Position numbers and translations under genes: made by a program
Notes under the pieces: generated by a model
What the model saw: the letters and a program-made list of their open reading frames with translations, nothing else
The model's database searches: none
What the model was told of the DNA's origin: nothing
Shown: piece by piece, positions 5,001 to 22,906 of the stretch
Layout of the letters: the number at the start of each line of letters is the position of its first letter
Numbering within the stretch: position 1 is the first letter of the stretch
DNA from: Sphingomonas sanguinis
Lineage (GTDB): Bacteria; Pseudomonadota; Alphaproteobacteria; Sphingomonadales; Sphingomonadaceae
Assembly (NCBI RefSeq): GCF_019297835.1
Contig: NZ_CP079203.1
Span: forward strand, 4,211,168 to 4,275,167
Direction of reading: 5' to 3'
Length of the DNA stretch: 64,000 bases

Positions 5001-5075
5001 TGGGGCGTCGCCAAGCGGTAAGGCAACGGTTTTTGGTACCGTCATACGCAGGTTCGAATCCTGCCGCCCCAGCCA
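5001..5075 (+). tRNA. tRNA-Gln(TTG)
   Basis: A full cloverleaf can be read. The acceptor stem TGGGGCG pairs with CGCCCCA. The anticodon stem ACGGT/ACCGT carries the loop TTTTGGT, whose central triplet TTG reads CAA glutamine codons. The T arm has GGTTCGAATCC. The discriminator is G, and CCA is encoded at 5073-5075. The 3' end is followed at once by integrase sequence, so it is the likely attachment site of an integrated element. Confidence 0.97.
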
Positions 5076-5238: not shown

Positions 5239-6526
5239 GTGGCATCGAGACAGCCTTTCACCCCGGCCAGCCTGGACAATCTGAGGTCCGGCTCGCTCAC
5301 CGATCCGCAGACGCCCGGCCTCATCATCGAGGTCGGTGCCCGCGGTAAGAAGACCTGGAAGTATCGCCGTCGCCTCCCGGATCAGGATGTGACGGTGAAG
5401 ATGACGCTGGGCAGCTATCCTGCGTACCGGATCGGCGATGCCCGCGAATGGGCGCGGGAACTTAATAGTGACGTCGAGACCGGCATCGACCCGCGCGAGG
5501 CGCTTCGCGAGGCGGCGGCACGGGCGGAGATGACCGTCGCCCGCGCGCACGCCCTCTATATGACGGCCGCGCGGGAAGGGCGCGCGTCGCGGGCCAAGCG
5601 CCTGAACAAGCCGCGCACGATCAAGGACAAGCAGGACATCTACGATCGCGATATCGCACCCACATTGGGTGCGAAGATCATCTACGAAGTGACCGAGAAA
5701 GACCTGATCAAACTGGTCTCGAAGAAGGGCGAAACCGCCAAGGTCCGGGCAAACCGGCTGGCCGCCGAACTGAAGGTCTTCTTCGGCTGGGCGGCGGGCT
5801 TGCGCGGACTGGTCGTCGGCCTGGAAAACGACCCGTCCCGGCGGCTGGGTGATCTGAAGTTCGTTGAAACACGTCGGACGCGAAAGCTCGACCTCGATGA
5901 GATCCGCTGGTTCCTGCAGGCCGTCGCGCCGGAGAAACGCGACTTCCGGCGTGGCCTGATCCTGTCCCTCCTGACCGCAACGAGGATCAGCGAACTGGTC
6001 AAGGCTCGTAGCTCCGAGATCGAGAATGGCGTGTGGACGATCCCCGCCGCCCGATCCAAGAACTCGACCGCGCATGCCATCGCCCTGGGGCCGTTGGGGG
6101 CAGCGGCTATTTGCGAGTAATCACGAGTGGGTTTTTCCCGCCGAGAGGGTGGAAGGGCCGCGTACCACCGGCTGGTACAAGGCCAGGGATCGCGTGCTGG
6201 CCCGAATGGAGAAGATCGCCGACAGGCCCGTTGATCGCTTTTGCCCGCACGATTTTCGACGAACGGCGCGGAGCAACACCAAGCGGCTGAAGGTCGACTT
6301 CGAGACGGCCGAAGCGATGCTGAACCACCTGAAGGTTGGAATGGAACGGATTTACGATGGATATGAGCTCGAAGAGGAAAAGGCAGCCTGGTTCCTCAAG
6401 TGGGAGCGTGAGATCATCCAGTTAGCGGAGAAGGCGGGGGTGGCAGCTGAACTCGAAGTCCCGGTTCAGCCGAAGCGAGCCGTAAAGGCACCTTCCGGGC
6501 AACGCCGTTGTACGCGACGATCGTAG
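5239..6526 (+). pseudogene. tyrosine integrase with Arm-DNA-binding domain, frameshifted
   Basis: Phage or island integrase of the DUF4102-plus-catalytic-domain type, reading from a GTG at 5239. The N-terminal arm-binding domain has RKKTWKYR-like and TLGSYPAYRIGDAREWA stretches, followed by a SAM-like core-binding domain (about residues 95-180) and the catalytic domain. Catalytic residues are seen in TATRISEL (Arg), HDFRRTARSN (His-x-x-Arg) and LNHLKVGMERIYDGYE (Tyr). The frame breaks near 6115, where a stop appears after AAAICE; the rest (NHEWVFPAERVEG onward) continues in another frame, as a single-base insertion would produce. Probably inactive unless the shift is a sequencing error. Its place beside tRNA-Gln fits site-specific insertion there. 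Confidence 0.85.
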
Positions 6527-6612
6527 GCTGCGTGAGAGCGGTCAGAGGAAGCCGGAGGTTTGAGAGTCTCCTCCGCGTGACAGTAATTGGGTATTGCGAC
6601 CGCGGCAGGTGT

Positions 6613-6678
6613 CGACCAGACCCGGTCGTTCGCGTTCACTCCGGCGAACGTCTGGTCCCGGCAGTAGCTGCCGTTCGC
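6613..6678 (-). repeat. dispersed 60-bp repeat, diverged copy on minus strand
   Basis: On the minus strand GCGAACGGCAGCTACTG is followed about 35 bases on by GAACGCGAACGACCGGGT, the same two-half layout as the family described at 55661. It is one of the weaker copies. Confidence 0.45.
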
Positions 6679-6902
6679 CCTGATGAAGGCCAGCGACCGA
6701 AACATGCCGAATGGGCGACCGTCTGCACCGCATTCAAATCCTGGGCCGCGACCCAGCACGTCGGAACTCTGGTGGGAGCACGAACCCGCTGCGCGGGAGG
6801 GGCGTGCGGGGCATGGTTGAGGTGATACAACGGGCGTTGCGCGCCGGTTGAGCCCTGCGGGCGAGAGGCAGAGCATCGGGGTTCCACGAAAGGAGCCCTG
6901 CC

Positions 6903-7811
6903 ATGACCATTATTGCCCCGGTTGTTGCCGTCAGCCCGCTACGCCAGCGTCTCATCGACGAGATGGATATGCGCCGTTTCGGTCACGAGACGCAGCGTAA
7001 CTACATCCGCGATGTCGGCCGGTTCGCCACGTTCCTCGGGCGCCCGCCGGACACGGCAACGGCGGAGGATGTCCGGCGCTTCCAGATCGAGCAATGTGAC
7101 CTGGGCGTGCCGGCACCGACCATGAACGCCATCGTGTCGGCGCTGCGGTTCTTCTTCACGCAGACGCTCGACCGGCCGGACCTGGCGCGCAAGCTGGTCC
7201 GCATGCGGCACGTGCGCAAGCTGCCGGTGGTGCTGAGCCAGGACGAGGTGGCGCGGCTGCTCGCGGCGACCACGTGCCTGAAGCATCAGGCGGCGTTGTC
7301 CGTCGCCTATGGCGCGGGGTTGCGCGCGTCCGAGATCGCCGCGCTCAAGGTCCGCGACATCGACAGCGAGCGCATGCTGCTCCGGGTCGAGCGCGGCAAG
7401 GGCGGACGGTACCGGAACGCCATGCTCCCGGCCGGGCTGCTGGCGTTGCTGCGGGAATGGTGGCGGGTCGGTCGGCGGGAGGGTGTGTTGCACGTCGATG
7501 GCTGGCTGTTCCCCGGCCAGCACTATCTCAAGCCAGTCAGCACCCGGCAGTTGCACCGTATCGTCGTCGAGGCGAGCGTGGCGGCGGGCATCGGCAAGCG
7601 GGTTGGGCCGCACACGCTGCGGCACTGCTTCGCCACGCATCTTCTCGAGGATGGTATCGACGTCCGCATCATCCAGACGCTGCTGGGGCACGCGAAGCTG
7701 GAGACCACCGCCTATTACACGCAGGTCGCCACCCGGGTGTTGCGCAACGTCACCAGCCCATTCGACCGGCTGGCGGCAACCGCCAGAGAAGCAAGGGCGT
7801 CGAGCGGCTGA
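6903..7811 (+). CDS. IS91-associated site-specific tyrosine recombinase
   Basis: XerC/D-like recombinase of 302 aa. The N-terminal core-binding domain (about residues 12-100) contains RFGHETQRNYIRDVGRFATF. The catalytic domain has GAGLRASEIAALKVRDID (first Arg), HTLRHCFATHLLEDG (His-x-x-Arg), LGHAKLETTAYY (His and the nucleophilic Tyr). All catalytic positions are present and the frame is open, so it is probably functional. AAAGGAG lies ahead of the ATG at 6903. It is followed after 6 bp by the HUH transposase gene, with which it is usually mobilised; whether it is needed for transposition is not settled in the family. Confidence 0.9.
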   Translation: MTIIAPVVAVSPLRQRLIDEMDMRRFGHETQRNYIRDVGRFATFLGRPPDTATAEDVRRFQIEQCDLGVPAPTMNAIVSALRFFFTQTLDRPDLARKLVRMRHVRKLPVVLSQDEVARLLAATTCLKHQAALSVAYGAGLRASEIAALKVRDIDSERMLLRVERGKGGRYRNAMLPAGLLALLREWWRVGRREGVLHVDGWLFPGQHYLKPVSTRQLHRIVVEASVAAGIGKRVGPHTLRHCFATHLLEDGIDVRIIQTLLGHAKLETTAYYTQVATRVLRNVTSPFDRLAATAREARASSG

Positions 7812-7817
7812 GCGGGC

Positions 7818-9011
7818 ATGCGCGCCTCCATCGAGGTCGCCGACATCTTCCGTGCCGCAGGTCCTGCGTACCGGGCTGCCCGCGCCGGGCATCTGAGCCT
7901 CGACCAGCTCAAGGTCATGTCGGCCATCGAACATTGCCGCACCGCCGTCATGGGCGGGCACGTCGAAGCCTGTACCGACTGCGGGCACTGGCGGGTTGCC
8001 TATAACTCCTGCCGCAACCGGCACTGCCCGCGATGCCAGGGCGCGGCCGCGCGGACGTGGCTTGCCGAGCGCGAAGCCGACCTGCTGCCGGTCGGCTATT
8101 TCCATGTCGTCTTCACGCTGCCGGCCGAGGTCGCCGACATTGCGCTCCAGAACAAGGCGGCGGTCTATGGGCTGCTGTTCCAGGCGGCGTCCGGGACGAT
8201 GACGACCATCGCTGCGGACCCGAAGCATCTGGGTGCCCGTATCGGCATCACCGCGGTGCTCCATACGTGGGGCTCGGCGATGACCCATCATCCGCACATC
8301 CACATGATTGTGCCGGGTGGCGGGCTGTCGCCGGACGGCAGCCGCTGGGTGTCGTCACGCCCGGCGTTTCTGCTGCCGGTGCGCGTGCTGGGAAAGCTCT
8401 TCCGCCGCCTGTTCCTGACCCGGCTGATGGCCCTGCACGACGCCGGGCGGCTCGCCTTCCATGGCAGCCTCGCGCACCTCGCCGACCGGCGGGCGTTCCT
8501 GCGCCACATGGCACCGATCCGGAAGAAGCGCTGGGTGGTCTACGCCAAGCCGCCGTTTGCCGGACCGGAGACGGTGCTCGCCTATCTGTCGCGCTACACC
8601 CACCGCGTTGCGATCTCGAACAGTCGGCTGCTGCGCTTAGACGAGACCGGCGTCACCTTCCGCTACAAGGATTACCGCCGGGGTGGTGCTGAACGACAGC
8701 AGGTCATGACGCTGGCCGCCGAGGAGTTCATCCGTCGGTTCCTGCTCCACGTCCTGCCCAAGGGCTTCCACCGCATCCGCCACTACGGCCTGCTCGCCGG
8801 CGCCACCCGCAAGGCGCATCTCGAACGTGCCCGCGAACTGCTTGGGGTTGTGCAGCCTGTCGCGCCCGATGCTCCGGTCGAACCGGACGACATCCGACCG
8901 CCATGCCCGTGTTGCGGCGGGCGTATGGTCGTCGTCGAAACCTTCGAGCGCCAATGCCAGCCCCGCGCTCCGCCGGCCCATGCTCTTCTATCCGGGATGC
9001 AGGCGTCGTGA
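7818..9011 (+). CDS. IS91 family HUH transposase
   Basis: Rolling-circle transposase of 397 aa. An N-terminal zinc ribbon (CTDCGHWRVAYNSCRNRHCPRC, split here as CTDCGHW and CRNRHCPRC, residues about 53-73) precedes the catalytic domain. The HUH metal site is in HHPHIHMIVPGGG, and the tyrosine motif is near YLSRYTHRVAISNSRL. The C-terminal part has another CPCC pair. The tail after about residue 380 (PRAPPAHALLS) is shorter and less orderly than usual, so the last few residues may have been lost or replaced. It starts 6 bp after the recombinase gene and is probably co-transcribed with it. Confidence 0.88.
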   Translation: MRASIEVADIFRAAGPAYRAARAGHLSLDQLKVMSAIEHCRTAVMGGHVEACTDCGHWRVAYNSCRNRHCPRCQGAAARTWLAEREADLLPVGYFHVVFTLPAEVADIALQNKAAVYGLLFQAASGTMTTIAADPKHLGARIGITAVLHTWGSAMTHHPHIHMIVPGGGLSPDGSRWVSSRPAFLLPVRVLGKLFRRLFLTRLMALHDAGRLAFHGSLAHLADRRAFLRHMAPIRKKRWVVYAKPPFAGPETVLAYLSRYTHRVAISNSRLLRLDETGVTFRYKDYRRGGAERQQVMTLAAEEFIRRFLLHVLPKGFHRIRHYGLLAGATRKAHLERARELLGVVQPVAPDAPVEPDDIRPPCPCCGGRMVVVETFERQCQPRAPPAHALLSGMQAS

Positions 9012-9496
9012 CCCGGCACGGCCCGAGAGCAACATACCCCGCAGCGCCGGTGCTCGCGGAGACGGTGCCATCCGCGCCGACCGCCGCCAGAGCGCTGGCC
9101 ACGTCGACTGTTACCGGGCTGTCCCCGCCGGTGAACCCATCCTGCTCACCCGATTCCGGACGGTCCACCTTCAGGGGCGCGTCCACATATGCCGTGTTGC
9201 TGCGCACCCCAGCAGGCCGGAAACCGAAAACCCCATAGCGCACCGCTTGCGGCCCGCGGGTTCGGGCTTCCAAGACTTTCGTACGCCTGCCGGCATCCGA
9301 AACTCTTCAGGGAAGCGGCCCGTCCGGTTCCGGACGTGCACACCGCGAAATCAGACGTTCGTTGACCGGACAGGCAGCGACCGCTTTGCGCCCTAATTCC
9401 GGTCATCTAAGTCTGTCCGCTGAGCACCCGAAAGCGGATATCCGTTTCGTGCCGGCGCAACGGCTATAGCGTTGGCCGTGTACATTGAAGAGGAGC
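9012..9496. other. non-coding stretch between the IS91-type and IS3-type elements
   Basis: No convincing gene. Several short open frames on both strands have arginine- and proline-rich, random-looking translations. It probably contains the terminal region of the IS91-type element and some older flanking DNA. Confidence 0.5.
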
Positions 9497-9575
9497 TGAC
9501 GTCCTCCCTGTTTTTTCATCCAAGCTGGGTGAGAGTTTTCCGGCCCTTTGAAGCCTGTGGGCAAGGAGCTGGGAC

Positions 9576-9842
9576 ATGAAGAAGTCGAGGTACACGGAAG
9601 AGCAGATCGCCTTTGCGCTGAAGCAAGCGGAGCCGGGCACGCCGGTGGCGGAGGTCATCCGCCGTATGGGCGTATCGGAGCAGACCTTCTATCGCTGGAA
9701 GAAGGTGTATGGCGGGCTGGGCGTCGGCGAGCTGCGGCGGGTGAAGCAGCTCGAGGACGAGAACCGCAAGCTGAAGCAGCTCGTCGCGGATCTGAGCCTG
9801 GACAAGCATATTCTGCAGAATGTCCTGGCAAAAAAGCTCTGA
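9576..9842 (+). CDS. IS3 family transposase OrfA
   Basis: DNA-binding N-terminal part of an IS3-type transposase (88 aa): an HTH (KQAEPGTPVAEVIRRMGVSE, then TFYRWKKVYGG) followed by a leucine-zipper helix (VKQLEDENRKLKQLVADLSL). It ends in LAKKL across A6G at 9830-9836, a classical slippery heptamer context (A AAA AAG). A -1 shift there leads directly into the orfB frame (KKALTPGRRREIV), as in other IS3 elements that make an OrfAB fusion. The start ATG follows GGGACATG, with GGAG eight bases upstream. Confidence 0.9.
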   Translation: MKKSRYTEEQIAFALKQAEPGTPVAEVIRRMGVSEQTFYRWKKVYGGLGVGELRRVKQLEDENRKLKQLVADLSLDKHILQNVLAKKL

Positions 9843-10706
9843 CGCCTGGGCGACGGCGCGAGATCGTCGCGCACGTCCAGGCGTCCCACGGCGTCAGCGA
9901 GCGGCGCAGTTGCCTCGCGCTCGGGGTCGACCGCTCATCGGTGCGCTACGTGTCGCATAAGCCTGACCAGGCGCCGCTGCGGCTGCGCATCCACGATCTG
10001 GCGGCAGCACGGGTGCGCTATGGCTTTTTCCGGATCTACATCCTGCTACGCAGGGAGGGCTGGCTGGTGAACCATAAGCGGGTTTACCGGCTCTACCGGG
10101 AGGACGGGTTGAGCCTTCGGCTCAAGCGCCCCCGTCGAGGGCGTCAGCGCGGCGAACCGCGAACGCCAGCCTGCGGCCTCGGCGCCCAACGAGATGTGGT
10201 CGATGGACTTTGTCTCGGATGCCTTGTTCGATGGCCGGCGGCTGCGGGCACTGACGGTGGTCGATGCGTTCACCCGCGAGGCGCTGGCGATCGACGTCGA
10301 TCAGGGCATCAAGGGCGACCAGGTTGTCGCGGCGGTGACGCGGATCGCGTCAGTACGTGGTGCGCCGAAGACCATTCGGGTCGACAACGGCCCGGAGTTC
10401 ATCCCGAAGGCGCTCGACCGATGGGCGTATGAGAACGGCGTCACGCTTGATTTCTCGCGGCCGGGCAAACCGACCGACAACGCCTTCGTCGAGAGCTTCA
10501 ACGGCCGGCTTCGCGACGAGTGCCTGAACAGCCACTGGTTCCTGTCGCTGGCGGAAGCTCGTGCCAAGATCGAGGTCTGGCGCCGGGACTATAACGATAG
10601 CCGTCCTCACACGGCGCTTGGCTGGCTCACGCCAGCCGAATATGCTGCATCCGTCGGGGTTAACCCCGACGGATGCAAACCGGAAACTCGCATCATGCCC
10701 GGATGA
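9830..10706 (+). pseudogene. IS3 family transposase OrfB, frameshifted
   Basis: DDE-type catalytic half of the transposase. Its N-terminal part (KKALTPGRRREIVAHVQ, then RVRYGFFRIYILLRREGW) is in the -1 frame relative to orfA. Near 10135, in the CCCCCGTCGAGGGC stretch, the frame jumps: the rve domain proper continues in the next frame with MWSMDFVSDALFDGRRLRAL. The acidic residues are visible in MDFVSD, RVDNGPEFI and FVESFNGRLRDE. The internal break means no full transposase is made unless a second shift occurs. The family usually needs OrfAB intact, so this copy is probably immobile by itself. Confidence 0.85.
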
Positions 10707-10867
10707 AAAACAGGGGGACCGTCAAACACCGGTCGGTCTCTGGTTGCCGCTGGATGAGAGATTGGGGTCACGTCAGAGCGTCAATCATACGCCGCGAGCG
10801 TACCGTTGTAGTTGCCGAAAGGAACCTATAGAGAACGCTCTCCATCGTCGTTTGAGTAAGTGAGCCG

Positions 10868-10886
10868 TCCCAAAGATATTTTGGGA
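10868..10886. promoter_or_regulatory. short inverted repeat before the nuclease-STAND gene
   Basis: TCCCAAA and TTTGGGA flank GATAT, 74 bp before the GTG start of the giant gene at 10961. It is a candidate operator or a small hairpin in the leader. The rest of the 236-bp gap after the IS3 end shows no gene. Confidence 0.25.
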
Positions 10887-10960
10887 TCAGCACTACTTTC
10901 GAAAGCGAGAACGGCAGGACGAATAGAACCGATCCGGATCAAACGGGCAGGATAGAACAG

Positions 10961-13900
10961 GTGAGCGATTTTACAGGCGCCCGGGGGTCCAATACCGGCG
11001 ACGATTTCCATGAACTCTGGGCCGCACGGCATGCGATGCGGCTCCTAGATGACCGCGATCCGTTACAGGCAATGACGGTCGAGGGCATCGTCCCGACCGA
11101 CGCGACCGGTGTGGTAGATTCGACTTGGGATGGTGTCGATTGCGCGCTCTACGAAGGTGGGCGCAGCGCGTCGGACGCCGATCGCATCGTAATCGAACAG
11201 CTCAAATATTCGGCGGCCAATCCTACGGCCAGCTGGACTGTCGCGCGGATTTGGCAAGGCGAAAAGCGCGAGGACAGCGTGCTCCATCGCTTGGCGAAAG
11301 CCTGGTCAGGAATCCGGAGTTTGAAGCCCAAGGGCCCGATCGAGGTATCGCTGGTCACCAACCAGCCCATTGCCGAGGCCTTGGCTGCCGCGACGGTGAA
11401 GGTCGCGACCGGCGATGTCGCGGTGCCTCGCGACCGTCCGAAGGGGCAGGCCACGGACGAAATCAAGCTGGCCTACGCTTCTGGCTTGGCCAAAAAAGAT
11501 TTGCCGCTCTTCGCCGGCGCGCTCCGCTTCGACGGCAGCACGGGGTCTCGCTTCGCCATTGAGGACAAACTGCTCGGCGACATGGCCGGCTGGACCGATC
11601 TCGAGATGCAAACTGCGGTCGCCAAACTGCGGCAGTTCATCCGCCATCGCATGCGGCCGGAGTTCGCGGGGGAGGTGATCACCAAGGAGAAGATACTCAT
11701 CGGGTTGGGCGTCGCGGACATCGGCGCGCTGTTTCCATGTCCCGCGGAACTAAAGTCGGTCGCGAACCGGGTGCCGCGGGCAAGCGTAGCCGACGCGGCC
11801 TCGAAACTTCTCGCCGGCGAGCAGCGCATCTGCCTTCACGGTGTCGGCGGAATCGGCAAGACGACTGCGCTCCAGCAGATCGAGGCGACCCTCCCGGATC
11901 ATTCGGTCATGGTCACCTTCGATTGCTATGGTGGCGGCACCTATCTCGACGCGGCTGCGCTGCGGCATCGCCCGATCGACGCTTTTCTGCAGCTAAGCAA
12001 CGAGCTTGCGACCCGGCTTCGATTGCCCATCCTACTCGGGCGGCATCAGTTCAGCGACCCGGCACGGCTGTTCTGGAATCGTCTTTGCCATGCCGCCAAG
12101 GCGCATGCGGCCGAATATCCTGATGGCCTAATCGTGATCGCAGTCGACGCGGCGGACAATTCCGTCACCGCCGCCGCCGCCCGCAAGCCGGCAGAACAGA
12201 GTTTCATTCGGGATTTTCTCGAACTGGGCGAGCTGCCAGCAAATGTGCGGTTCGTCGTCACCGCGCGCACCGGCCGGTTGCCGGAGATCGCTCTGCCTGG
12301 CAATTATGTGCCGATGGAGCTCCGGCCGTTCAGTCGTGCCGAGACCGAAGCCCATGTGCGTTCGGTCTGGAACGCGCCGGCCGAGTGGCTCGATCTTTTC
12401 CATGAGCTGACGCACGGCGTGCCGCGCGTCCAGGCCTATGCCTTGGACCTGGGCGTGGCTGCGCCAGAACTCGCCATCGACCGCCTCCTGCCCGGCGGCC
12501 GGTCGCTGGATCAGGTATTCCGCGAACAATTCCGGCTGGCGCTCGGCAAGAGCGGCAATCCGGCTGACGTCGCGAAATATTGTGCAGGACTGATTGCGCT
12601 TGCCCGCCCTGTACCGCTGACGGACTTGAGTGGCGTCCTCGATATCCCCGTCCCAGCGCTGATCGACATCTGTACCGACATGGCACCGGCGATCCGTTTG
12701 CGCGACGGCCAGGTCGGGTTTGCCGACGAGGACTTTGAGCATTTCGTGCGCAAAGAGGGCGCGTCGACACTTAACGAGATTACGCGCCGAACCGCCGAAT
12801 GGCTATTCGCGCGGTGCAAGAGCGATGCCTATGCCGCGCAGCACGTCGCGGGCGCGCTCCTGTCTGCGGACCGCGGCGCCGATCTGCTGAACTTGGTCGA
12901 GGAAGAGCCGTCCCCGCCCGTGATCCTCGATCCCGTGGAGCGCCGCGAAGCCGAGCTTACCCGCCTGCGTCTTGCGATCCTCGCTTGTCGCAAGGCGGGC
13001 GATGCTGCGCGCGCGATGCGATTCGTGTTGATCGGCGGCGAGGGGTTGAAGACCGAGCGCGCACTCCGTGCGCTGCTCGCAAACAATCCTGATCTTGCCG
13101 TGCGCTTTGCGCCGGAGACAGCCGGGCGGCTGATCCTAACCGACCCTGAGCAGATCGCCTATCATGGCGCCTTTCTGATCCAGAAGCAGGTCGTCGATGC
13201 CATTGCGGGCGATCACGTCTCGCTCCGCGAAGGCAGGCGTCTGATCCGCGCATGGATGGCCGAGCGCCAGGACAGCACAGCCGAGCGCGACCGGCGCGAC
13301 TGGCGAGTCGACGTTTCCGATGTCACGGCGAACATCGAGACCGTGCTACGCGCAAAGGGGCCAGCAGAGGCACTGGAAGCACTTGGCACCTGGCGACCGA
13401 GGCGGCTGCGGCTGAAGGTCGCAAGGCAGCTCGTGCCCCGCCTTCTTGCGCAGGGCGAGGGCGATCTCCTTCATCGGATTCTTGCAACCGGTGTACTGAA
13501 ACTTTGGGAAGAGCCGTTCCTACTCGTGCCGATGACGATAGCTGGCGAGACTGTCGATCCGAGCCGCCTCGCGGCAGGAATCGCCGCTCTGCTGCGGCGT
13601 CGGCTCGACATAGGACGCTTCCTGTCGGCTCAGACATCGACGACGGATCTGCGTGGCTGGATTATCGATATCATCATGTCGGGGTGCGAGCTGCTGGCCA
13701 CCGAGGCCGCGGCGAAGACCATGGTGGATGACTTTCTCGACGCCATTTTGCGGCCTGCCAACAGACGGATCGAGAATCAGTTCATCAGCGCGACCGCAAG
13801 TCTGGACTTGCTCTTTCGTGCGCATGCACTCCGTGCTGCCCGTGCTAAGGCGACGCCGGTATCGACCGACCTATATGTCCCGCGTCCCGAGCCGGAAACG

Positions 13901-16900
13901 AAGGAAGAGAAAGAGCGCCGTGCTTGGCGCGAGAACGATGCGGACCGCAAGCTCAACGAACTCACAAACGCGATCTTCCCGATCTACGCGGCCACTGCAA
14001 CGGCGCTGGTCGTCGCTTCTGAACCGGCCGCCCTCGCGGAAATGCTGGAAGCGGCAGCCAGGAAGCGCGAAGACAATAGTTGGCGTCTGGCGCGCGATTT
14101 GAGCGGAAGCGCGCTCGCCCAGGCGGCGGCGCGCACCATGATGCTTCTGGCCGCGCGCGGCGCCGATTCCAACCTGCTGCTGTCCACGGCGCGGCGCGTG
14201 CATGGACGATGGGGAACCGGAGACCTTGCCCCCGATCTCGCATTCGGAGAGCGCATCGCGCTTCGCTCGGAACTGCACACCGACATGCTCGCCTATATCA
14301 CCAAATCGGTCGTGGCCATTCGCGGACATCGTATCGGTGCGGACGAAAAATCAAAGGCGCTGCTCGCTTATGCGCGTCTGTTGGTGCCGATCAGTCCCGA
14401 CGATGCCAGCGCGATCTTCCAGAGCGCAGTGGAGGCGGCGAGCCAATTGGATCGGGAGATCATTGGACAGCTGAAACTGCTGGCGGTGCTGTTCAAGCAG
14501 GGGTGCGCCGATGTGGCGGATCGACGTACAGCCGCACGCGAGCTCTCCGAAGTGCTGGCCGACGCCGCGATCCGCCTGGACGGAGAGGGAGAGCTTCCAT
14601 GGGATTCCGTGATGGACGCCCTTGCCCAACTCGACCTTCCAGTCGCCCTGGCCAATGCCGCCAAATGGGAAGACGCAAACCTCGCAAGTTTTCGAGAGAC
14701 GCTCGAGCCTGTCCTGAAATCAGGTTTGGCGACCGGCCTGGTTTCGCCGTCTGTCGCTATGGCACTCGCGCTGATGATGCAGGGCGATCACGGCGTCGTC
14801 GAAGCATCGTTGCATCATCTCCCCTCCGATGCCCCCCTTGCGTCGTTTCTGGAAGAAGCCGCCTGGGATGCGCTCATCCGGCACAATCACCGTGACAACG
14901 GTAAGCTAATCGCGCGTGTTGAAAAGGTGCAATCGCCGGGATTCATGGGGAATGCGCTGCTCCAACGCGGCGCGTTCCTCGCTAAGTTGCCGGAGGTAAA
15001 GCGGGGTCGCGCCTCCGGCGGATTGGGAGGTATCGACAGGACCTCCAAGGCGACAACGCCCCGGCCTAGCTGGGCGCGGGATGTCCTGCTCGACACCGAA
15101 AAGCTCGAACAAGAGATCAAAGCGGCGCTCAACGTCGCGCGTGCGAGCAAGAATTATATCTCTGCCTCCGAGGTTGTCGGATGGGCCGCTTGCAATGTTG
15201 ACCTGCGGGATCGCACCGCTTTTCTGGACGCCCTGACCGGCGTGAAGATTGGCGTAGGCGGTGAAGTCGTCGAGCGGCTTTTGACCCTGTTGCCGCAATG
15301 GGATTCCCCGGCAATTCGGCATTGGGCATCGTCAAAACTTCCGGGCGTGATTACCCGCCGGCTCCCGGATTTCATTCGCTACATCGCGCACGGCGAGACG
15401 TCGCTCCCCACGGCGATCGAATGGACCGGGATGGCCTCCGCTTCGGTCGTCGATCTTATCCTCCGCGGGGTGGAAGTGCACGGGCAAGCATTCAGCGGTG
15501 ACCAAGTCTTTGCCCTGGCAGTGTTGATTGCGGGCCATCTCGGATCGCAATCGGCGGCTGGCACGGCGACCTGGTATGCGCGAAGACTGGCAGACCGTAT
15601 CGACCTCGAAGACCGCGACCAAATCTGGGCGTCGGAAGATGTGCCTGTTGGCATCCCCGAGGCCGTTGCCCGCTTCTTGTATGCATGCATGGGCGATTAC
15701 GATGTCCGAGTCCGATGGCGTGCCGCACACGCGATGCGGCGTCTGGCGAGGCTCGGCGCAACCGCGGAGCTGCAAGCGCTGACTCGCGAGCATGGCCGCA
15801 AGACCGAGACCGTATTTCGTTCGCCCGCTCTCGATTTTTACTGGATCGCCGCGCGGATGTGGTTCGTCATCGCGTTCGATCGCATTGCGGGCGAGGTGCC
15901 GCAGGTCGCCACGCTCGCCGGCACGGAACTTCTGCGCACAGCATTGGATCAGGATTTCCCGCACATTCTCCTGACAAGCTTCGCGCGCGACGCTTGTCTC
16001 AAGCTGGCCGCGGCGAGCGTGCTTCCGCTTGATAAGGACACCCGGCACGCTCTCGAATGCGTGGGCAAATCGACCCTCGAACCGGTCGAACGTCCGGATT
16101 GGTCTGCACGCACGCGAAACCCCCTTTCGGTCGACAAGGAACGACGCTTCGATTTCGATCCGATGGACACCATACCCTATTGGTACGATCGCGTGCTCGA
16201 TGCCTTTGCCGATGTTTCTCAGGCGCAGCTGCTTGCCGAAGCGGAAAACTGGATCATCGACCGCTGGGGCTATGACGGAAAAATCCGCTCCTATGAAGCC
16301 GAACGCCGCGGTCACCGGTTCTCGGAGCGGGAATGGTCGCTCGCCAGCAATGGGCATGGGGCGAACCCGACACTGGAAAGGCTCAACACGCATCTCGAGT
16401 GGCACGCCTTATGGTGCGCGGTCGGTCAATTGATGAAAACCGAGCCACTCGCGGCAATCCCCGATAGCGATTGGGATGCCATGGCTCGGAGGGTGTCGGG
16501 CGAAATGCTTACCCAGCCGCCGCACTGGGCCACGGACATTCGGCAACCCGTGCCGCTTTGCGAGGACTTCTGGCGCCAGCCCAGCGAGCCTCTGGGCACG
16601 TGGGTCGATCAAGTAACGGAAGCCAAGATGCGTAGTGAGCTAATGCCGGCGGATCGCCCGGAGTATCTGCTGGTTGCCGGCGGTTGGCGGATCGCCACCT
16701 ACGAACGTTCCGAGACAGTTGCGTTTTCGAGCGCGCTTGTGGACCCGGAGCTCGCACCATCGCTGCTGCGCACGCTCCAGACGATGGAGAGTGCCTGGGA
16801 CTATGGGCTCCCGCGAGACGGAGACGAGTCGGATCATGACGAGGCCGAACACGGCCCATACCAAATGATTCCATGGCTTCGCACGATCTCGGCGGTTGGC

Positions 16901-17356
16901 GATATCGATGAGCTCGATCCGCTGCGCGGGAATGCCAGCCTGATCGACTGGACGCCGGGCCGTCGCGTGTCCGGAGCGCACGGCCTGGCCCGAAACGATG
17001 AAGGCAGGATCTCTTGGTCCACGCCCGGCAAGCCGCCCATGTTCCTCTACGAGGTTTGGGGAGAGAATGAGCGCGACGAAGAACGCTATCAGGCGCAACA
17101 ATTCGTGGCCGGCCGTCGGCTTTTGGTTGAGCGCGAGCAATTGCGGGAATTTCTGGCAGCCGAGGGTCTCGAGCTGGTGATCGAAGTGGAGATCAGACGT
17201 GAAGGACGTAACAGTCGACGAAGCTATGACGCGGAAGATCAAACCCCCGAGGCGGCGTACGACAGAGTCTACCGCTTCGACGGGGCTGGGAGATTCCACG
17301 TCGCCGAAGGATATATTGGGCGTTGGACGGGAGATCGTTCGGCAACTTCAGCTTGA
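10961..17356 (+). CDS. giant STAND NTPase with N-terminal Cap4/DUF4297-like nuclease domain (2131 aa)
   Basis: Built like an antiviral STAND sensor. Residues about 1-120 look like a PD-(D/E)xK nuclease of the Cap4/DUF4297 type: a GSNTGDDFHELWAARHAMRLL helix, then STWDGVDCALYEG (D57, D60) and IVIEQLKYS (Q80-x-K82). The P-loop NTPase follows, with Walker A GVGGIGKTT at 294-302, Walker B GLIVIAVDAADN at about 389-400, and FVVTARTGR as a likely sensor strand near 431-439. The remaining 1500 or so residues are helical and repeat-like, the place where Avs-type proteins bind a phage protein. GTG start. No frameshift over 6.4 kb argues for selection. It overlaps the next gene by 158 nt. The sensor-effector role is inference from architecture; the target is unknown. 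Size exceeds typical Avs proteins known to me. Confidence 0.8.
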   Translation: MSDFTGARGSNTGDDFHELWAARHAMRLLDDRDPLQAMTVEGIVPTDATGVVDSTWDGVDCALYEGGRSASDADRIVIEQLKYSAANPTASWTVARIWQGEKREDSVLHRLAKAWSGIRSLKPKGPIEVSLVTNQPIAEALAAATVKVATGDVAVPRDRPKGQATDEIKLAYASGLAKKDLPLFAGALRFDGSTGSRFAIEDKLLGDMAGWTDLEMQTAVAKLRQFIRHRMRPEFAGEVITKEKILIGLGVADIGALFPCPAELKSVANRVPRASVADAASKLLAGEQRICLHGVGGIGKTTALQQIEATLPDHSVMVTFDCYGGGTYLDAAALRHRPIDAFLQLSNELATRLRLPILLGRHQFSDPARLFWNRLCHAAKAHAAEYPDGLIVIAVDAADNSVTAAAARKPAEQSFIRDFLELGELPANVRFVVTARTGRLPEIALPGNYVPMELRPFSRAETEAHVRSVWNAPAEWLDLFHELTHGVPRVQAYALDLGVAAPELAIDRLLPGGRSLDQVFREQFRLALGKSGNPADVAKYCAGLIALARPVPLTDLSGVLDIPVPALIDICTDMAPAIRLRDGQVGFADEDFEHFVRKEGASTLNEITRRTAEWLFARCKSDAYAAQHVAGALLSADRGADLLNLVEEEPSPPVILDPVERREAELTRLRLAILACRKAGDAARAMRFVLIGGEGLKTERALRALLANNPDLAVRFAPETAGRLILTDPEQIAYHGAFLIQKQVVDAIAGDHVSLREGRRLIRAWMAERQDSTAERDRRDWRVDVSDVTANIETVLRAKGPAEALEALGTWRPRRLRLKVARQLVPRLLAQGEGDLLHRILATGVLKLWEEPFLLVPMTIAGETVDPSRLAAGIAALLRRRLDIGRFLSAQTSTTDLRGWIIDIIMSGCELLATEAAAKTMVDDFLDAILRPANRRIENQFISATASLDLLFRAHALRAARAKATPVSTDLYVPRPEPETKEEKERRAWRENDADRKLNELTNAIFPIYAATATALVVASEPAALAEMLEAAARKREDNSWRLARDLSGSALAQAAARTMMLLAARGADSNLLLSTARRVHGRWGTGDLAPDLAFGERIALRSELHTDMLAYITKSVVAIRGHRIGADEKSKALLAYARLLVPISPDDASAIFQSAVEAASQLDREIIGQLKLLAVLFKQGCADVADRRTAARELSEVLADAAIRLDGEGELPWDSVMDALAQLDLPVALANAAKWEDANLASFRETLEPVLKSGLATGLVSPSVAMALALMMQGDHGVVEASLHHLPSDAPLASFLEEAAWDALIRHNHRDNGKLIARVEKVQSPGFMGNALLQRGAFLAKLPEVKRGRASGGLGGIDRTSKATTPRPSWARDVLLDTEKLEQEIKAALNVARASKNYISASEVVGWAACNVDLRDRTAFLDALTGVKIGVGGEVVERLLTLLPQWDSPAIRHWASSKLPGVITRRLPDFIRYIAHGETSLPTAIEWTGMASASVVDLILRGVEVHGQAFSGDQVFALAVLIAGHLGSQSAAGTATWYARRLADRIDLEDRDQIWASEDVPVGIPEAVARFLYACMGDYDVRVRWRAAHAMRRLARLGATAELQALTREHGRKTETVFRSPALDFYWIAARMWFVIAFDRIAGEVPQVATLAGTELLRTALDQDFPHILLTSFARDACLKLAAASVLPLDKDTRHALECVGKSTLEPVERPDWSARTRNPLSVDKERRFDFDPMDTIPYWYDRVLDAFADVSQAQLLAEAENWIIDRWGYDGKIRSYEAERRGHRFSEREWSLASNGHGANPTLERLNTHLEWHALWCAVGQLMKTEPLAAIPDSDWDAMARRVSGEMLTQPPHWATDIRQPVPLCEDFWRQPSEPLGTWVDQVTEAKMRSELMPADRPEYLLVAGGWRIATYERSETVAFSSALVDPELAPSLLRTLQTMESAWDYGLPRDGDESDHDEAEHGPYQMIPWLRTISAVGDIDELDPLRGNASLIDWTPGRRVSGAHGLARNDEGRISWSTPGKPPMFLYEVWGENERDEERYQAQQFVAGRRLLVEREQLREFLAAEGLELVIEVEIRREGRNSRRSYDAEDQTPEAAYDRVYRFDGAGRFHVAEGYIGRWTGDRSATSA

Positions 17357-18044
17357 TGCCCGCGGCGAACTTCCGACACGATGGATGGCACATCATCTCG
17401 CCCAGTTGATCGAGATCGCCGAGCGAAGCGATGGGAACGAACGTAAGTCGGCGGAGGATCGCGCTGTCGACCTCATTCTAAAGCTCTGGACGAATCGCCG
17501 AGCTCTCCCAATCCCGGCTGACCCCTTGGCGGGATATGGCCCGGCCATCAAAGTTCTCGCCTCTATGGTGCCCGGTGGCGATCCCTGGCGGATATATGGC
17601 CGCAGGGAGACGAGTGACGATCTGCTGCGCGAGATGTACGCTGCGCTGGTACATCTGGTGATGAGCGGCCTGCTCCTAACCCGCGGCCCTGAGATCCGCG
17701 CGATCGACAATGCGGAATGGCAAGCGCTTACCGATGAAGAGCGAGAGCTTGTTGCCTTTTTTGAGCGCTGGCGGGCATTCTTTGCAACACCGGTGCCCAA
17801 CAAGGCAGATTTGAAGAGTCTCTACGAAAAATTGATCAACGGTGACTTCGAGTCACTGAAAGACCAACCAGCACCGTCAGGGCAGAGTGAAGAAGTCTCG
17901 ATTGATCTGGAAGGCGAGCGCCGCGCGATCTTGTCCCATGTCGAAGTTTTTCAGGAGCGCTTGGAGAAGCTGGTTGAAAAATGGCGCGAGACTCTGGCGG
18001 ATGATATGGCGGGCGAAACTGATAATAGTGGGGACGATGCGTAG
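17199..18044 (+). CDS. unrecognised partner of the nuclease-STAND gene (281 aa)
   Basis: I do not recognise a family. The protein is hydrophilic, with a basic leader (MTRKIKPPRRRTTE), a helical middle (DDLLREMYAALVHLVMSGLL) and a C-terminal segment of about 30 residues likely to be a coiled coil (VEVFQERLEKLVEKWRETL). A GTG at 17199 is preceded at 7 bases by GGAG, so the first 53 codons lie inside the end of the upstream gene in another frame; an ATG at 17226 is the alternative. Either start leaves an overlap of over 130 nt and implies coupled synthesis. Its position suggests an accessory or adaptor of the STAND protein. No nuclease, protease or toxin motif is seen. Confidence 0.75.
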   Translation: MKDVTVDEAMTRKIKPPRRRTTESTASTGLGDSTSPKDILGVGREIVRQLQLDARGELPTRWMAHHLAQLIEIAERSDGNERKSAEDRAVDLILKLWTNRRALPIPADPLAGYGPAIKVLASMVPGGDPWRIYGRRETSDDLLREMYAALVHLVMSGLLLTRGPEIRAIDNAEWQALTDEERELVAFFERWRAFFATPVPNKADLKSLYEKLINGDFESLKDQPAPSGQSEEVSIDLEGERRAILSHVEVFQERLEKLVEKWRETLADDMAGETDNSGDDA

Positions 18045-18092
18045 CGTTTTTCAAACGCAGGACGAACGGTTTCTGCTGTCGATTGATAGCCC

Positions 18093-18281
18093 CTAGGCGC
18101 CGCTGCACGCGGCTGTCGGCGTCATCGGGATTCGCATCCACACGTGGCCGCGCCGGTCGATGCATGCGAGCAGCAAGGTCCATGCGGCGTAAGTCTCGTT
18201 GTCCCCGGTAACCGTCCAGTACGTGTCCCACCAGTGCCGCGCGAACGCACCGCGCCTCTCTTCAGGTAGGAGCCATCGTCA
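18093..18281 (-). pseudogene. short open fragment, possible remnant of a helical-repeat gene
   Basis: On the minus strand a frame stays open for about 60 codons before a TAG at 18093-18095 and reads EERRGAFARHWWDTYWTV, then NETYAAWTLLLACIDRRGHV. Composition is protein-like (aromatic and aliphatic residues well spaced) but no start codon fits. It lies just beyond the end of the hydrolase-STAND gene and out of frame with it, so it may be the tail of a deleted related gene. Weak evidence. Confidence 0.35.
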
Positions 18282-18322: not shown

Positions 18323-21300
18323 TCAGGCACCGTTGATGATGTTTCCGACCGTAGCGCCTGACACGTGCGTGTGCTTGAGAGTGACAGAGGCGTCGTTCCG
18401 TGCGGTCTTCATCGCATTCCCGAAGAAGTCGAGCCATTGCGCGCGCCAGCTCGCAGGAGAGACACGGTACGGCTTTTCTTGGAAGTAGAGCGAGTATCTG
18501 AGATCGCTCGTCCGATTGAAGAGCCAGAAAGCGCGATATGCCTCCTCCTCGGATGCCGCGCTTCGAAGATTTCGGTACCAATGGCTCGCGGCTTGAACGC
18601 GACTAAACCACGATCTCGCGCTCGAACGAACCTCTCCCAGCCAGCCGGAAGGAGCCGCGTCGGCGTCAAGGCCTTCCCAGAAGCTGATCGCGTCGTCGCT
18701 CGCGACGAGGAACCCGGCTGCGGTCAGCCCCCTGGCGCGCATGAGCGCCCGACCGCCCGTGAGGCTCGCGGCGATCCAGTTCAGCAGGAACTCGCGGTGT
18801 CCGTGCCGTTCCAGCCCGCGCACCGCGGTGAAGAGCCTTTCGTCATTGTTCGCGCGGCCAAGCATTTCGGCTCGAAGGTCGTCGAACAGGCGACCTGCCG
18901 GAAGGTCGCAGGGGAACTCCTCGATCGAGCCTACCCAGATGCTACCGCCGTCGCCGACGCATTCCCGCCAGATGGTCTTGACCAGCTCCGGTTCCCGCGT
19001 GGCGAGGGCCTTGATCAGCGCCCAGGCGGGACCTTCGCCGTGCTCCCAGCGGATGTTGTCGCGCATGGCCCGATCTTCCCACGCGGTTCGAAGGAGGCGG
19101 GTCATGGGGTCATGTTCGTCGGCTACGTATGCCGCAAAGGCCTCGTCGCGCTGGGCGAAGTAGCTGTAGCTTCCGCCGAACGATCGGGAGGTCCGAGGGG
19201 TAAGCAGCTTCGCCTCCGCCCAGGCGCGGATGCGTGGCGAGATCTCGGATTGAAGCTGGGGACGGTGCAGGTAGCTCTGGACGAGCGCTTCGGGGTGAAG
19301 GCGATGCAGCAGCGGCCGCAGCACGTCGTCGGACGTCTTGAGGAGCAGAGCGGACGTGTCGAAGCCGAGCGGATCTACACCGACGATCGATCCCGCCCCC
19401 GTGATCGTCAGGAGCTGCGCGGCCGCGCTCTCGCCATCGGAGTATGTCGCAGTCTGGAGAGTGATCAGACGGACGTCCTCATCCGGATGATCCAGGCCGG
19501 CGCGCCAGTCGCGCGCGCAGCTGACGCCGAACCGCATCACCAGCGTCTTCAAGAGCCTCAGCATCGGCGTCAGCTCGCCGGCGGGTGCCGAAAGGTCGAC
19601 GCGGGCGACCAAATCCACGGCCTCGCTGCCGACCGGCTCGTTCAACAAGTATCGGTAGTCGCGCGGCCACGAACTACTCGGCGTACCCTCGAGCAGAGCG
19701 ATCTGCTCGAATAAAGGGCGATGCGCGAGCCTCAAGGCGTTGGCCGCGTCCCGGCCGGCGCCGTCCGGTGCCGCTCGCCCGTCGACCAGCTCAGCGAGGG
19801 CGGCGCACTCATCCGGCGAGAGGAACGGTAGCGCGCCCAGCGCGTGACGACGAAAGTCCGCGTCGGCATAGGCGTCTTCGGCGCGCTCATGCTGCGATGC
19901 TCCGTGAGATGCGGGCATAGCGACCGGATTGCTAAGAAACTTGCGATAGAGAGCGACAAGCGTCTCCGGCTGCCAGCGGAGCACCACCGCCAACTTCGCT
20001 CCGCCGTGGTCGAAGAGACCCGGAAGGTCCGTCGACGACAAGCCTTCCACATGGACGCGCAGGGCTTCGGCGAGCGAAGGATCGAGCGTGATCGTCGGAT
20101 CGGCTGCGAAGTCTGCAAGCACGTCGATCACCATGCCGGGGCGCGGAAGCGTAGAGGTCAGGCGCAGGACGTCCGTCCTTGGCATCCGCTCGACCCATGA
20201 CCGGCCCACCCTTCCACGCTTAGGATCCAGCGTCTCGGCGCGTTCGGCGTCCTCGGGCTCGCCCGTGGCGCGCAGCAGGTGCGCCGCGGCGATTGAACCA
20301 TGTCCGTGGATCGAGGAGAGGCGATCCGCTTCCGCTCGGACGGCGTTCAGGGTAGCCTCGTGGTCCAAATCGTTGTGCCGGAGGAGCGTAGCGATCTCCC
20401 AATCGTGTGAGACATGCCCTGCTGCGGCGTGGTTCTCCGCCCAGTCGGCAAAGGCGGGCACGAAGGCCAGTCGGGGCAGGAAGCCGATGACCTGCGCGGC
20501 GGTGCGGGCCGCCGCAGCCGGCCATGTGCCGGCAGGCTGACCAATGCGCGACGTCCAGCGGCCTGGTTCCGACAGCTCGAGGTCGGCCAGACGCTCACGC
20601 TGCGTCCGCCTGTCGCGATTGACGAGGGCATCGTAGCCCGGCTGGTCGCTTTCGTGATCCTCGGGGAGCGGAACCACCGAAAGCCATTCGCCCACCTTTC
20701 GTTCCACCCGCGGACGAAGCGACGGGTGATCCTCCCAGAGGCACGCGATTGCCCAGGGCAGCAGCCAGTTGAAGGCGCCGCGTGCGTGCCTAGCGCAATA
20801 GTCGAGGAAGAGCTCCGGCCGGAATACGTGAAGGCGTCGCCAGAAGTCCTGACCGGCACTGCCATGCGCCGGGCTGCGCTCCCAACGCTCCATGACTGCT
20901 TCGCACAAGTCGTCGCCGTTGCTCGGATCGACGATCAGGGCGGTGGCGCAGGTCCGCAGAACCTTCTCCACGAGATCGTCCGCGCCCCAAGGCTCCAGGA
21001 ATCGGTCGATCTCCGGTAGCGCGGCTTCAGGTCCGCTCCCCCGTACGAGATCGGCCAGCGCGAACCCGACCGCGTCCGGCAGCGAACTGTCGCTTAAGAC
21101 GAGCAGGTGAGCCGACGTTGGGTCTCTCTGAAGCCAATCGCCTGATATTAGATCGCTCAGTACGGTTCTCATCTGCCCGCGATCATAGCCGCTAATGTCG
21201 GCCGCGGCGTCGACGAGCGCACCCGGGGTGACGCGGTACGACTGCTGTGCCAGCGCCGCCGCCTGAGCTGCGGCGGCTTGTGTAATCACTAGCGCCTTGA

Positions 21301-22906
21301 AGCCGTCGGGAGTGAGGAGACCGCCCTTCACGACTTGTCGGTTTTGGAAGTCACGGAGCAGGAGCTGCTCTCGCGTGATCCTGGTCATGTCGCCGAGCTC
21401 CGCGGCGAGGCGCGTAAGATGGAAAGCCGTTCGTGGGTGCAGAGCGGCTTCCAGCACGTGCTCGGAGACGGCCGCGAGATCGACGTGACGGCTTCTCAGA
21501 TACTCGTCCCGCTCGTCGGTGCTGAAGCGCGTCACCGATCCCTGCTCAGTCCCGACGGGCAAGACCTCGTCCAGACCTACCCTGTGGCGCCAGTCGTCCT
21601 CCCGGCAGGTCAGGACCAGCCGGAACAAGCCGGACCACTGCTCGGTCAGAAGCGGGGCGATCCAAGTGTCCCACCTGAATGGATCGACCTCGTCGAGCCC
21701 GTCCACGAGGATGAGCAGCCGCAGCCGCAACTCCGGAGCGGCGGTCGCCCAGCGCGCAAGCCGCTCAAGCCAAATCTTTCTCGTCCCTCCGCCACGCAGG
21801 CCTGCGTGCTCGCCCACGTCCGACAGCGCGGAAAGCACCGCCTCCAATCCGTCCTTGCTCCCGGCCGCATGCTGTGCGGTGAGGATCACCGGCAGAGGAC
21901 CGTTCGACCTTGCGCTCAGTACCCGCAGAAGATCAAGCGCCCCCCACGTCTTCCCCATGCCCTCGCTACCCAGCTGGACGAGAACCTGCTGATCGCCATT
22001 CCACCAAGTCTCCCCAGCTTCGCGCAGCGAGAGGCGCGCTACAGGGGGCGCGGCGGCGAGAAGGGCCGGCGACGGCCCCGCGATCGAACGGGCTGCGGCT
22101 GGATCGACAAAGATCCTGCGCAGCTGCATCGAGGCGGCCTGCTGCGCCTCCACGAAGTCGGCATCGGAAGGAAGGCTGGTCGACTGCGCGAGCAGCACGA
22201 GCTCGCGTTGCTGCTCGCTTTCGAGCGACGTCGGCTTGGCGATGGAGCCATGGTCGGTGTTTGCGATGATGCGTGACTTGGCGAAGTACTTGGCAGCAGA
22301 ATGTGGCGCCACGATCTGCCATCCGGACAACAAACCTCGCAGGAACATCGGGTGTTCCTCGACAAGCTCCTTGCCGAACAAGGGGAAGAGGTCCTTCTCC
22401 TTCATGTCGATGAAATCGGCGTCGAGCTCGTTCAGCCACTTGTTGTCTTGCGAGAAGCGAAGCCCTCGCAGCTGGACATGGTGGAAGAGGAAGGCACCCA
22501 GGCTCGCGTAGTGCGAGCCCAGCGACGGAGACGCCACAAGCAGCAGCCCGACCCGCGTTCGTTGCCGCTCGTACTCGCGCTGCTCCCTCACCAGATGGTG
22601 CCGTACGACGATCCCGCCTTGGCTGTGACATACGAAGACGATTTCGCTCAGATCGACAAGCCCGTCCGACCGCATGAGAGCCGTCAGCGACTTGGCCGCG
22701 TCCCCCGCGCCGTACAGCCTCGAACTCGTGGTAGTCTGGTAGTCGAACAGGTAGATCCCATAACCGTCGAGTTGCGGATCTGCGAATACCAGCTCGGGCC
22801 AGCTTGTGTCCGCGCTCGACCACGCGGAGTGGTTGTTCGACCAGAGACCATGCACGAAGATGATAGCGCGGCCGGCGGTCGGCTCACGAAGCCAGGTACC
22901 CTGCAT
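18323..22906 (-). CDS. giant alpha/beta-hydrolase-STAND NTPase fusion (1527 aa)
   Basis: The N-terminal domain (about 1-230) is a SERAC1/PGAP1-like alpha/beta hydrolase: oxyanion strand IIFVHGLWSN at 15-24, nucleophile elbow VCHSQGG with S95, and a DHGSIAKP motif with H219 as the likely catalytic histidine. A P-loop NTPase follows, with Walker A GSEGMGKT at 313-320 and Walker B LLILVDGLDEVD at 397-408, typical of NACHT/STAND proteins. The last 1000 or so residues are alpha-helical and repeat-like, the expected sensor. The parts suggest a lipase or esterase effector released by ligand binding, which is inference. The gene is convergent with the nuclease-STAND operon 279 bp away and intact over 4.6 kb. 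Start ATG 22906, shortly before the hydrolase core. Confidence 0.82.
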   Translation of the reverse strand: MQGTWLREPTAGRAIIFVHGLWSNNHSAWSSADTSWPELVFADPQLDGYGIYLFDYQTTTSSRLYGAGDAAKSLTALMRSDGLVDLSEIVFVCHSQGGIVVRHHLVREQREYERQRTRVGLLLVASPSLGSHYASLGAFLFHHVQLRGLRFSQDNKWLNELDADFIDMKEKDLFPLFGKELVEEHPMFLRGLLSGWQIVAPHSAAKYFAKSRIIANTDHGSIAKPTSLESEQQRELVLLAQSTSLPSDADFVEAQQAASMQLRRIFVDPAAARSIAGPSPALLAAAPPVARLSLREAGETWWNGDQQVLVQLGSEGMGKTWGALDLLRVLSARSNGPLPVILTAQHAAGSKDGLEAVLSALSDVGEHAGLRGGGTRKIWLERLARWATAAPELRLRLLILVDGLDEVDPFRWDTWIAPLLTEQWSGLFRLVLTCREDDWRHRVGLDEVLPVGTEQGSVTRFSTDERDEYLRSRHVDLAAVSEHVLEAALHPRTAFHLTRLAAELGDMTRITREQLLLRDFQNRQVVKGGLLTPDGFKALVITQAAAAQAAALAQQSYRVTPGALVDAAADISGYDRGQMRTVLSDLISGDWLQRDPTSAHLLVLSDSSLPDAVGFALADLVRGSGPEAALPEIDRFLEPWGADDLVEKVLRTCATALIVDPSNGDDLCEAVMERWERSPAHGSAGQDFWRRLHVFRPELFLDYCARHARGAFNWLLPWAIACLWEDHPSLRPRVERKVGEWLSVVPLPEDHESDQPGYDALVNRDRRTQRERLADLELSEPGRWTSRIGQPAGTWPAAAARTAAQVIGFLPRLAFVPAFADWAENHAAAGHVSHDWEIATLLRHNDLDHEATLNAVRAEADRLSSIHGHGSIAAAHLLRATGEPEDAERAETLDPKRGRVGRSWVERMPRTDVLRLTSTLPRPGMVIDVLADFAADPTITLDPSLAEALRVHVEGLSSTDLPGLFDHGGAKLAVVLRWQPETLVALYRKFLSNPVAMPASHGASQHERAEDAYADADFRRHALGALPFLSPDECAALAELVDGRAAPDGAGRDAANALRLAHRPLFEQIALLEGTPSSSWPRDYRYLLNEPVGSEAVDLVARVDLSAPAGELTPMLRLLKTLVMRFGVSCARDWRAGLDHPDEDVRLITLQTATYSDGESAAAQLLTITGAGSIVGVDPLGFDTSALLLKTSDDVLRPLLHRLHPEALVQSYLHRPQLQSEISPRIRAWAEAKLLTPRTSRSFGGSYSYFAQRDEAFAAYVADEHDPMTRLLRTAWEDRAMRDNIRWEHGEGPAWALIKALATREPELVKTIWRECVGDGGSIWVGSIEEFPCDLPAGRLFDDLRAEMLGRANNDERLFTAVRGLERHGHREFLLNWIAASLTGGRALMRARGLTAAGFLVASDDAISFWEGLDADAAPSGWLGEVRSSARSWFSRVQAASHWYRNLRSAASEEEAYRAFWLFNRTSDLRYSLYFQEKPYRVSPASWRAQWLDFFGNAMKTARNDASVTLKHTHVSGATVGNIINGA

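Follow-up and report, generated by a model that had tools for sequence, protein, structure and literature searches.

The avs3 locus and its surroundings

Our analysis covered a window of 64,000 nucleotides from Sphingomonas sanguinis (bases 4211168-4275167 of contig 1 in a 4.37-Mb genome with two contigs), in which a tRNA gene and several mobile elements precede two overlapping genes that we label avs3a and avs3b:

5001-5075: tRNA-Gln
5239-6526: tyrosine integrase behind the tRNA-Gln, interrupted, with its domains in two frames
6903-9011: tyrosine recombinase and IS91-type transposase
9497..10775, forward strand: IS3-type element with HTH_Tnp_1 and rve domains, ends TGACGT...ACGTCA and a GAGC 4-bp repeat on both sides
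10776..18096: avs3 module, 95.7% identical to the Stakelama sediminis locus (L009) when taken with 9383-9496 beyond the IS element
10961..17356, forward strand: avs3a, GTG start, 2131-aa open reading frame for a STAND protein
17199..18044, forward strand: avs3b, GTG start, at most 281 aa, sharing at most 158 nt with avs3a

The first-pass annotation had described the 2131-aa and 281-aa reading frames at 10961..18044 as a gene pair set among transposons, and both parts of this description hold. The mobile setting consists of the tRNA-Gln with its broken integrase, the IS91-type transposase and the IS3-type element. Both frames are intact, and both genes are found in Stakelama sediminis (95.5% identity for avs3a and 94% for avs3b), with Nei-Gojobori dN/dS ratios of about 0.21 for avs3a (0.0209/0.0987) and about 0.19 for avs3b (0.0271/0.1398). 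Because this relative keeps both genes with ratios near 0.2, indicating purifying selection, neither is a chance frame; across the 52 overlapping codons the ratio is 0.35.

The Stakelama copy stands in other surroundings than the window copy. It is continuous with window positions 9383-9496 and 10776-18096 and lacks the IS3-type element, which is present as extra sequence in the window (9497-10775; blast break 9496/10776). Past 18096, the similarity of the window to the Stakelama locus and to those of Sphingomonas koreensis (L010) and Sphingomonas xinjiangensis (L011) stops. We considered whether a mobile module ends on the right at this position, given that window homology to L009, L010/L007 and L011 ends there, and rejected this idea: L009 and L010 stay alike for some tens of bases further, so 18096 is the point where the window departs. 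On the other side of the genes, a 191-nt stretch of the window (6602-6792) is 77% identical to a stretch near the avs3b remnant in L010 and L007.

The gene at 18323-22906, on the reverse strand and convergent to the pair, encodes 1527 aa that combine a DUF676 serine-esterase region at the N-terminus with a NACHT-like NTPase; neither PADLOC nor NCBIfam gave a match for this protein. Among 28 aligned relatives (itself included), DUF676 was found in 3 and Abhydrolase_6 in 1. In the majority consensus the N-terminus is a different one and contains the stretch GDQxGxDG...QAKRY; one relative of this type had a weak PADLOC REase match (3.3e-4). This neighbor looks like an unnamed STAND defense candidate with an exchangeable effector. 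A 207-aa protein beginning MPPFDRSVFVNCPFDDDF is encoded at 26099-26722, also on the reverse strand; neither Pfam, at E<=0.1, nor PADLOC gave a match for it, and it presumably resembles TIR-like or deoxyribosyltransferase-like domains.

Family assignment of the gene pair

Using PADLOC profiles, we found that Avs3a matches the model of that name with E=5e-191 (residues 1-2113 onto profile positions 1-2088 of 2090), and that Avs3b matches its namesake with E=2.5e-21, restricted to residues 34-138, the first approximately 100 residues of its core. The best NCBIfam matches were likewise the Avs3a and Avs3b models, respectively, with scores far under the curated cut-offs: 735 bits against a cut-off of 2800 for NF041816, and 69.6 bits against 200 for NF041817. 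We treat these cut-offs as protecting the name for close relatives, such that the pair would fail the narrow label and not the type, because four of the six other Avs3b partners that were scanned also fall under the NF041817 cut-off (all six, which served as seeds of our Avs3b search profile, match the model, two of them above the cut-off).

The sole PDB sequence matching Avs3a at E<=1 was SeAvs3 (PDB 8dgc, E=4.7e-123), aligned by phmmer in two separate segments (residues 1-1249 and residues 1486-2117), and searching PDB sequences with Avs3b alone gave no match at E<=1. Pfam returned only AAA/NACHT models for Avs3a, all sub-threshold, and nothing of note for Avs3b, which is why no known domain had been seen in the partner at first. 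The proposal of a Cap4/DUF4297-like nuclease, a STAND NTPase and a C-terminal sensor in an Avs-like defense protein is supported by the family models and the solved homolog. By comparison, two features that had been taken as departures from Avs are in fact ordinary: a length of approximately 2100 aa is normal for Avs3a (2092 aa in SeAvs3; 2083 positions in the NCBIfam model), and type 3 systems include the small second gene by name, as Avs3b, with an overlap of 107 nt in an annotated Klebsiella pair. Judged from sequence, the pair very probably belongs to AVAST type 3 (Avs3), as a divergent member of this anti-phage type. This system type is already known, and the points of interest are only its divergence and the role of Avs3b.

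Domains and conserved residues of Avs3a

The domain order and the putative functional residues of Avs3a are as follows, with the remainder of the protein outside the nuclease region and NTPase core forming a helical/sensor region:

Residues 1-250, forward strand: predicted nuclease region, by profile match to SeAvs3 1-242
11081..11206, forward strand: stretch with nuclease residues E41, D60, Q80 and K82, of PD-(D/E)xK type, here D...QxK
Residues about 265-440: NTPase core
11840..11863, forward strand: Walker A, GGIGKT with flanks, including K300
12146..12160, forward strand: Walker B region DAADN (D396, D399, N400)
15401..17353, forward strand: C-terminal region, residues about 1481-2131, the probable phage-protein sensor

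A profile of residues 1-250 built from eight relatives matched SeAvs3 1-242 alone (E=9.1e-57), and Pfam gave no nuclease model at E<=10 for this region. The GVGGIGKTT Walker A with K300 and the residues D57, D60 and K82 named in the first-pass annotation are all present, and the agreement of the two N-termini answers its concern that a nuclease might be lacking there. The N-terminus is thus predicted, on sequence grounds, to be a PD-(D/E)xK (Cap4-like) nuclease, followed by a STAND NTPase that carries both Walker motifs.

To count residues, we used the first 900 residues of the 120 matches listed out of at least 977 related proteins, and separately aligned 16 full-length Avs3a-type proteins. 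Among the matches listed, the catalytic residues are conserved: E41 and D60 are each found in 118 of 120 homologs (with 2 gaps each), Q80 in 120/120 and K82 in 119/120, while K300, D396, D399 and N400 are present in every one of the 120 and in all 10 canonical Avs3 rows. D57 is D in 113 of the 120 listed and E in 8 of the 10 canonical rows. In the 16-protein alignment, the mid region (621-1480) has just 11-28% identity to rows from outside Stakelama.

Conservation of the small partner

For avs3b, with 63 homologs found, the start position is uncertain: among the homologs listed, annotated starts span residues 1 to 63 of the 281-aa frame, many falling at approximately 33-45, and the conserved core begins at about residue 33. 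If avs3b begins further in, its overlap with avs3a is shorter than 158 nt. Annotated frames of the two genes overlap in Rhizobium, Klebsiella, Janthinobacterium, Shewanella, Priestia, Acinetobacter and one Rhodococcus, and lie apart in a second Rhodococcus (L044). Residues G43, W62, H65 and A68 are invariant in 21 aligned Avs3b sequences. Structure prediction for Avs3b gives helices throughout, at moderate confidence, and no clear relative of its fold was found. One Avs3b-like protein (P0055) has DUF6998 (PF22522) fused at its C-terminus.

We ran the Avs3b profile search over 29 loci, nine of which (L009-L017) had been fetched through Avs3b, while one is the window itself, the query. In the other 19, one (L008) stops at a contig end, leaving 18 testable loci, which were found through Avs3a and not Avs3b. 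Avs3b is present in 10 of these (L002, L024, L026, L027, L029, L030, L031, L044, L045, L046), six of which supplied the seeds of the search profile. It was not found in the remaining 8 (L021, L022, L023, L025, L028, L047, L048, L049), one of which, L028, is in pieces; Avs3a thus occurs with and without its partner. In most of the relatives tested, avs3a is followed by a small partner and not by unrelated genes; a recurring non-defense operon had been named as evidence against a defense role. Avs3a-like proteins with no Avs3b in the locus occur in Tistrella and in three further loci from two genera (L025, L022, L023, L021).

A Shewanella baltica plasmid (L029, 2272-9208) encodes an Avs3a body with another N-terminus that has no nuclease residues, the sole canonical row of this kind; its residues 232-2089 match PADLOC Avs3a with 1174.5 bits, and its Avs3b is kept (138.9 bits against NF041817, under the cut-off).

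Distribution and decay among relatives

At E<=0.001, the homolog search recovered at least 977 related proteins, and the most similar copies with a named source come from Stakelama and Sphingomonas. The NF041816 family was detected in 7 of 199 relatives and, among genomes sampled across the class, in 4 of 385, both figures including the source genome; none of 14 control genomes had it. Matches were found in 18 of 72,556 plasmid records, all at less than 60% identity (14 of the 18 were fetched as loci), and in 0 of 50,697 phage records. In a midpoint-rooted tree of 59 proteins (19 from the loci plus 40 of the 107 listed homologs longer than 2000 aa), the window protein falls within a group of 46, split with support of 0.992 from the annotated Avs3a of Klebsiella and Janthinobacterium; the 40 homologs were chosen by similarity to the window, such that the group size is not informative on abundance. 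Identity between the window Avs3a and the annotated Klebsiella protein is about 27%.

Among close relatives, avs3a is split over two frames in Sphingomonas xinjiangensis (L011), and Sphingomonas koreensis (L010) has a whole avs3b next to an avs3a reduced to about its last 61 residues, indicating that the system decays in relatives. L007 and L010, with identical match figures, are probably the same locus. Two further loci of the same genus (L005, L006) carry open reading frames of approximately 250-266 aa that match the N-terminus of the Avs3a model alone (1-239 and 1-211), apparently nuclease-only remnants or other proteins.

Proposed mechanism and alternative readings

For SeAvs3, one part of PMC11291478 describes how a viral protein on the sensor leads to a tetramer in which the nuclease domains are arranged as two dimers that cut DNA. 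In passages of PMC12931631, the nucleases of Avs1-Avs4 cut phage and host genomes upon encountering the terminase large subunit, the portal or Ksap1. By homology with SeAvs3, we infer a similar course for the window pair: Avs3a would act as a single-protein receptor-effector whose C-terminal half binds a phage protein (the large terminase subunit in the SeAvs3 model system), after which the NTPase domain, with ATP, would drive assembly into a tetramer. The PD-(D/E)xK nuclease domains at the N-terminus would then pair and cut DNA of both phage and host, which would halt the phage and sacrifice the cell. Avs3b is translated from the overlapping frame of the same operon.

The least certain step is terminase as the trigger in the window clade. 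The approximately 27% identity to Klebsiella Avs3a means that the trigger need not be terminase, and the same protein design could sense another phage protein in this clade. Such a change of trigger would fit the well-supported split from the canonical clade, the low identity of the C-terminal residues 1801-2131 to canonical rows (21-28% in the 16-protein alignment), and the variety of triggers reported for Avs proteins, which in passages of PMC12931631 include terminase, portal, Ksap1 and JADA. Against it, the C-terminal half aligns to SeAvs3 (residues 1486-2117, the second phmmer stretch, onto 1469-2083; i-Evalue 8.4e-55) with a score above that of the middle of the protein, and keeps invariant aromatic and charged residues in the 16-protein alignment. 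We regard a different trigger as rather unlikely.

The L029 locus bears on the partner, since it keeps Avs3b without nuclease residues, and some nuclease-bearing Avs3a proteins stand without Avs3b. In our view, Avs3b would most likely assist the receptor part, in assembly, stability or threshold, and not the nuclease. A stronger version, in which the clade is a functionally separate Avs3 branch with both a non-terminase trigger and Avs3b as a dedicated cofactor of the receptor/NTPase, not of the nuclease, seems to us unlikely.

The locus might also be a decayed or silenced Avs3 whose frames remain open while the IS3-type element severs the promoter, leaving no action in the host. With its right end 185 bp upstream of where avs3a begins, this element could change or abolish expression of the gene; its absence from the Stakelama copy and the broken relatives (L011 and L010/L007) point the same way. 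Both frames are fully open, however, and dN/dS against L009 is approximately 0.2, although this ratio mostly reflects evolution that preceded the insertion. Promoters can also be provided by IS ends. Silencing is doubtful in our view. A housekeeping or regulatory STAND protein outside defense, with which the lack of matches among phage records would agree, is highly improbable given the patchy presence in relatives and across the class, the plasmid-borne relatives, the retained nuclease residues and the mobile surroundings.

Read as a divergent Avs3, the pair adds an alphaproteobacterial branch to the family, whose members remain hypothetical proteins because the curated cut-offs fit close relatives of known Avs3. 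Loci with and without Avs3b, and with and without nuclease residues, provide a comparison set for the role of the partner.

Comparison with known systems

With SeAvs3 and AVAST type 3, the window pair has in common the length class, the nuclease-NTPase-C-terminus order over the full length, the overlapping two-gene operon, and the nuclease and Walker residues. It differs in that both proteins score below the curated NCBIfam cut-offs, in its low identity to Klebsiella Avs3a, in a Walker A of GVGG where the 10 canonical Avs3 rows have A at residue 294, and in an Avs3b that fits its family model in the 34-138 segment alone. Cap4 (CBASS) and DUF4297-HerA have a related PD-(D/E)xK nuclease domain, according to a passage of PMC11291478, but join it to other sensors, unlike the window Avs3a, and scans of the pair with Pfam, NCBIfam and PADLOC revealed no SAVED or HerA part. 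Avs1, Avs2, Avs4 and Avs5 have the STAND receptor logic in common with the window protein, as parts of PMC12931631 describe; in contrast to these, the large protein matched Avs3a as the only Avs model that PADLOC reports for it at E<=10.
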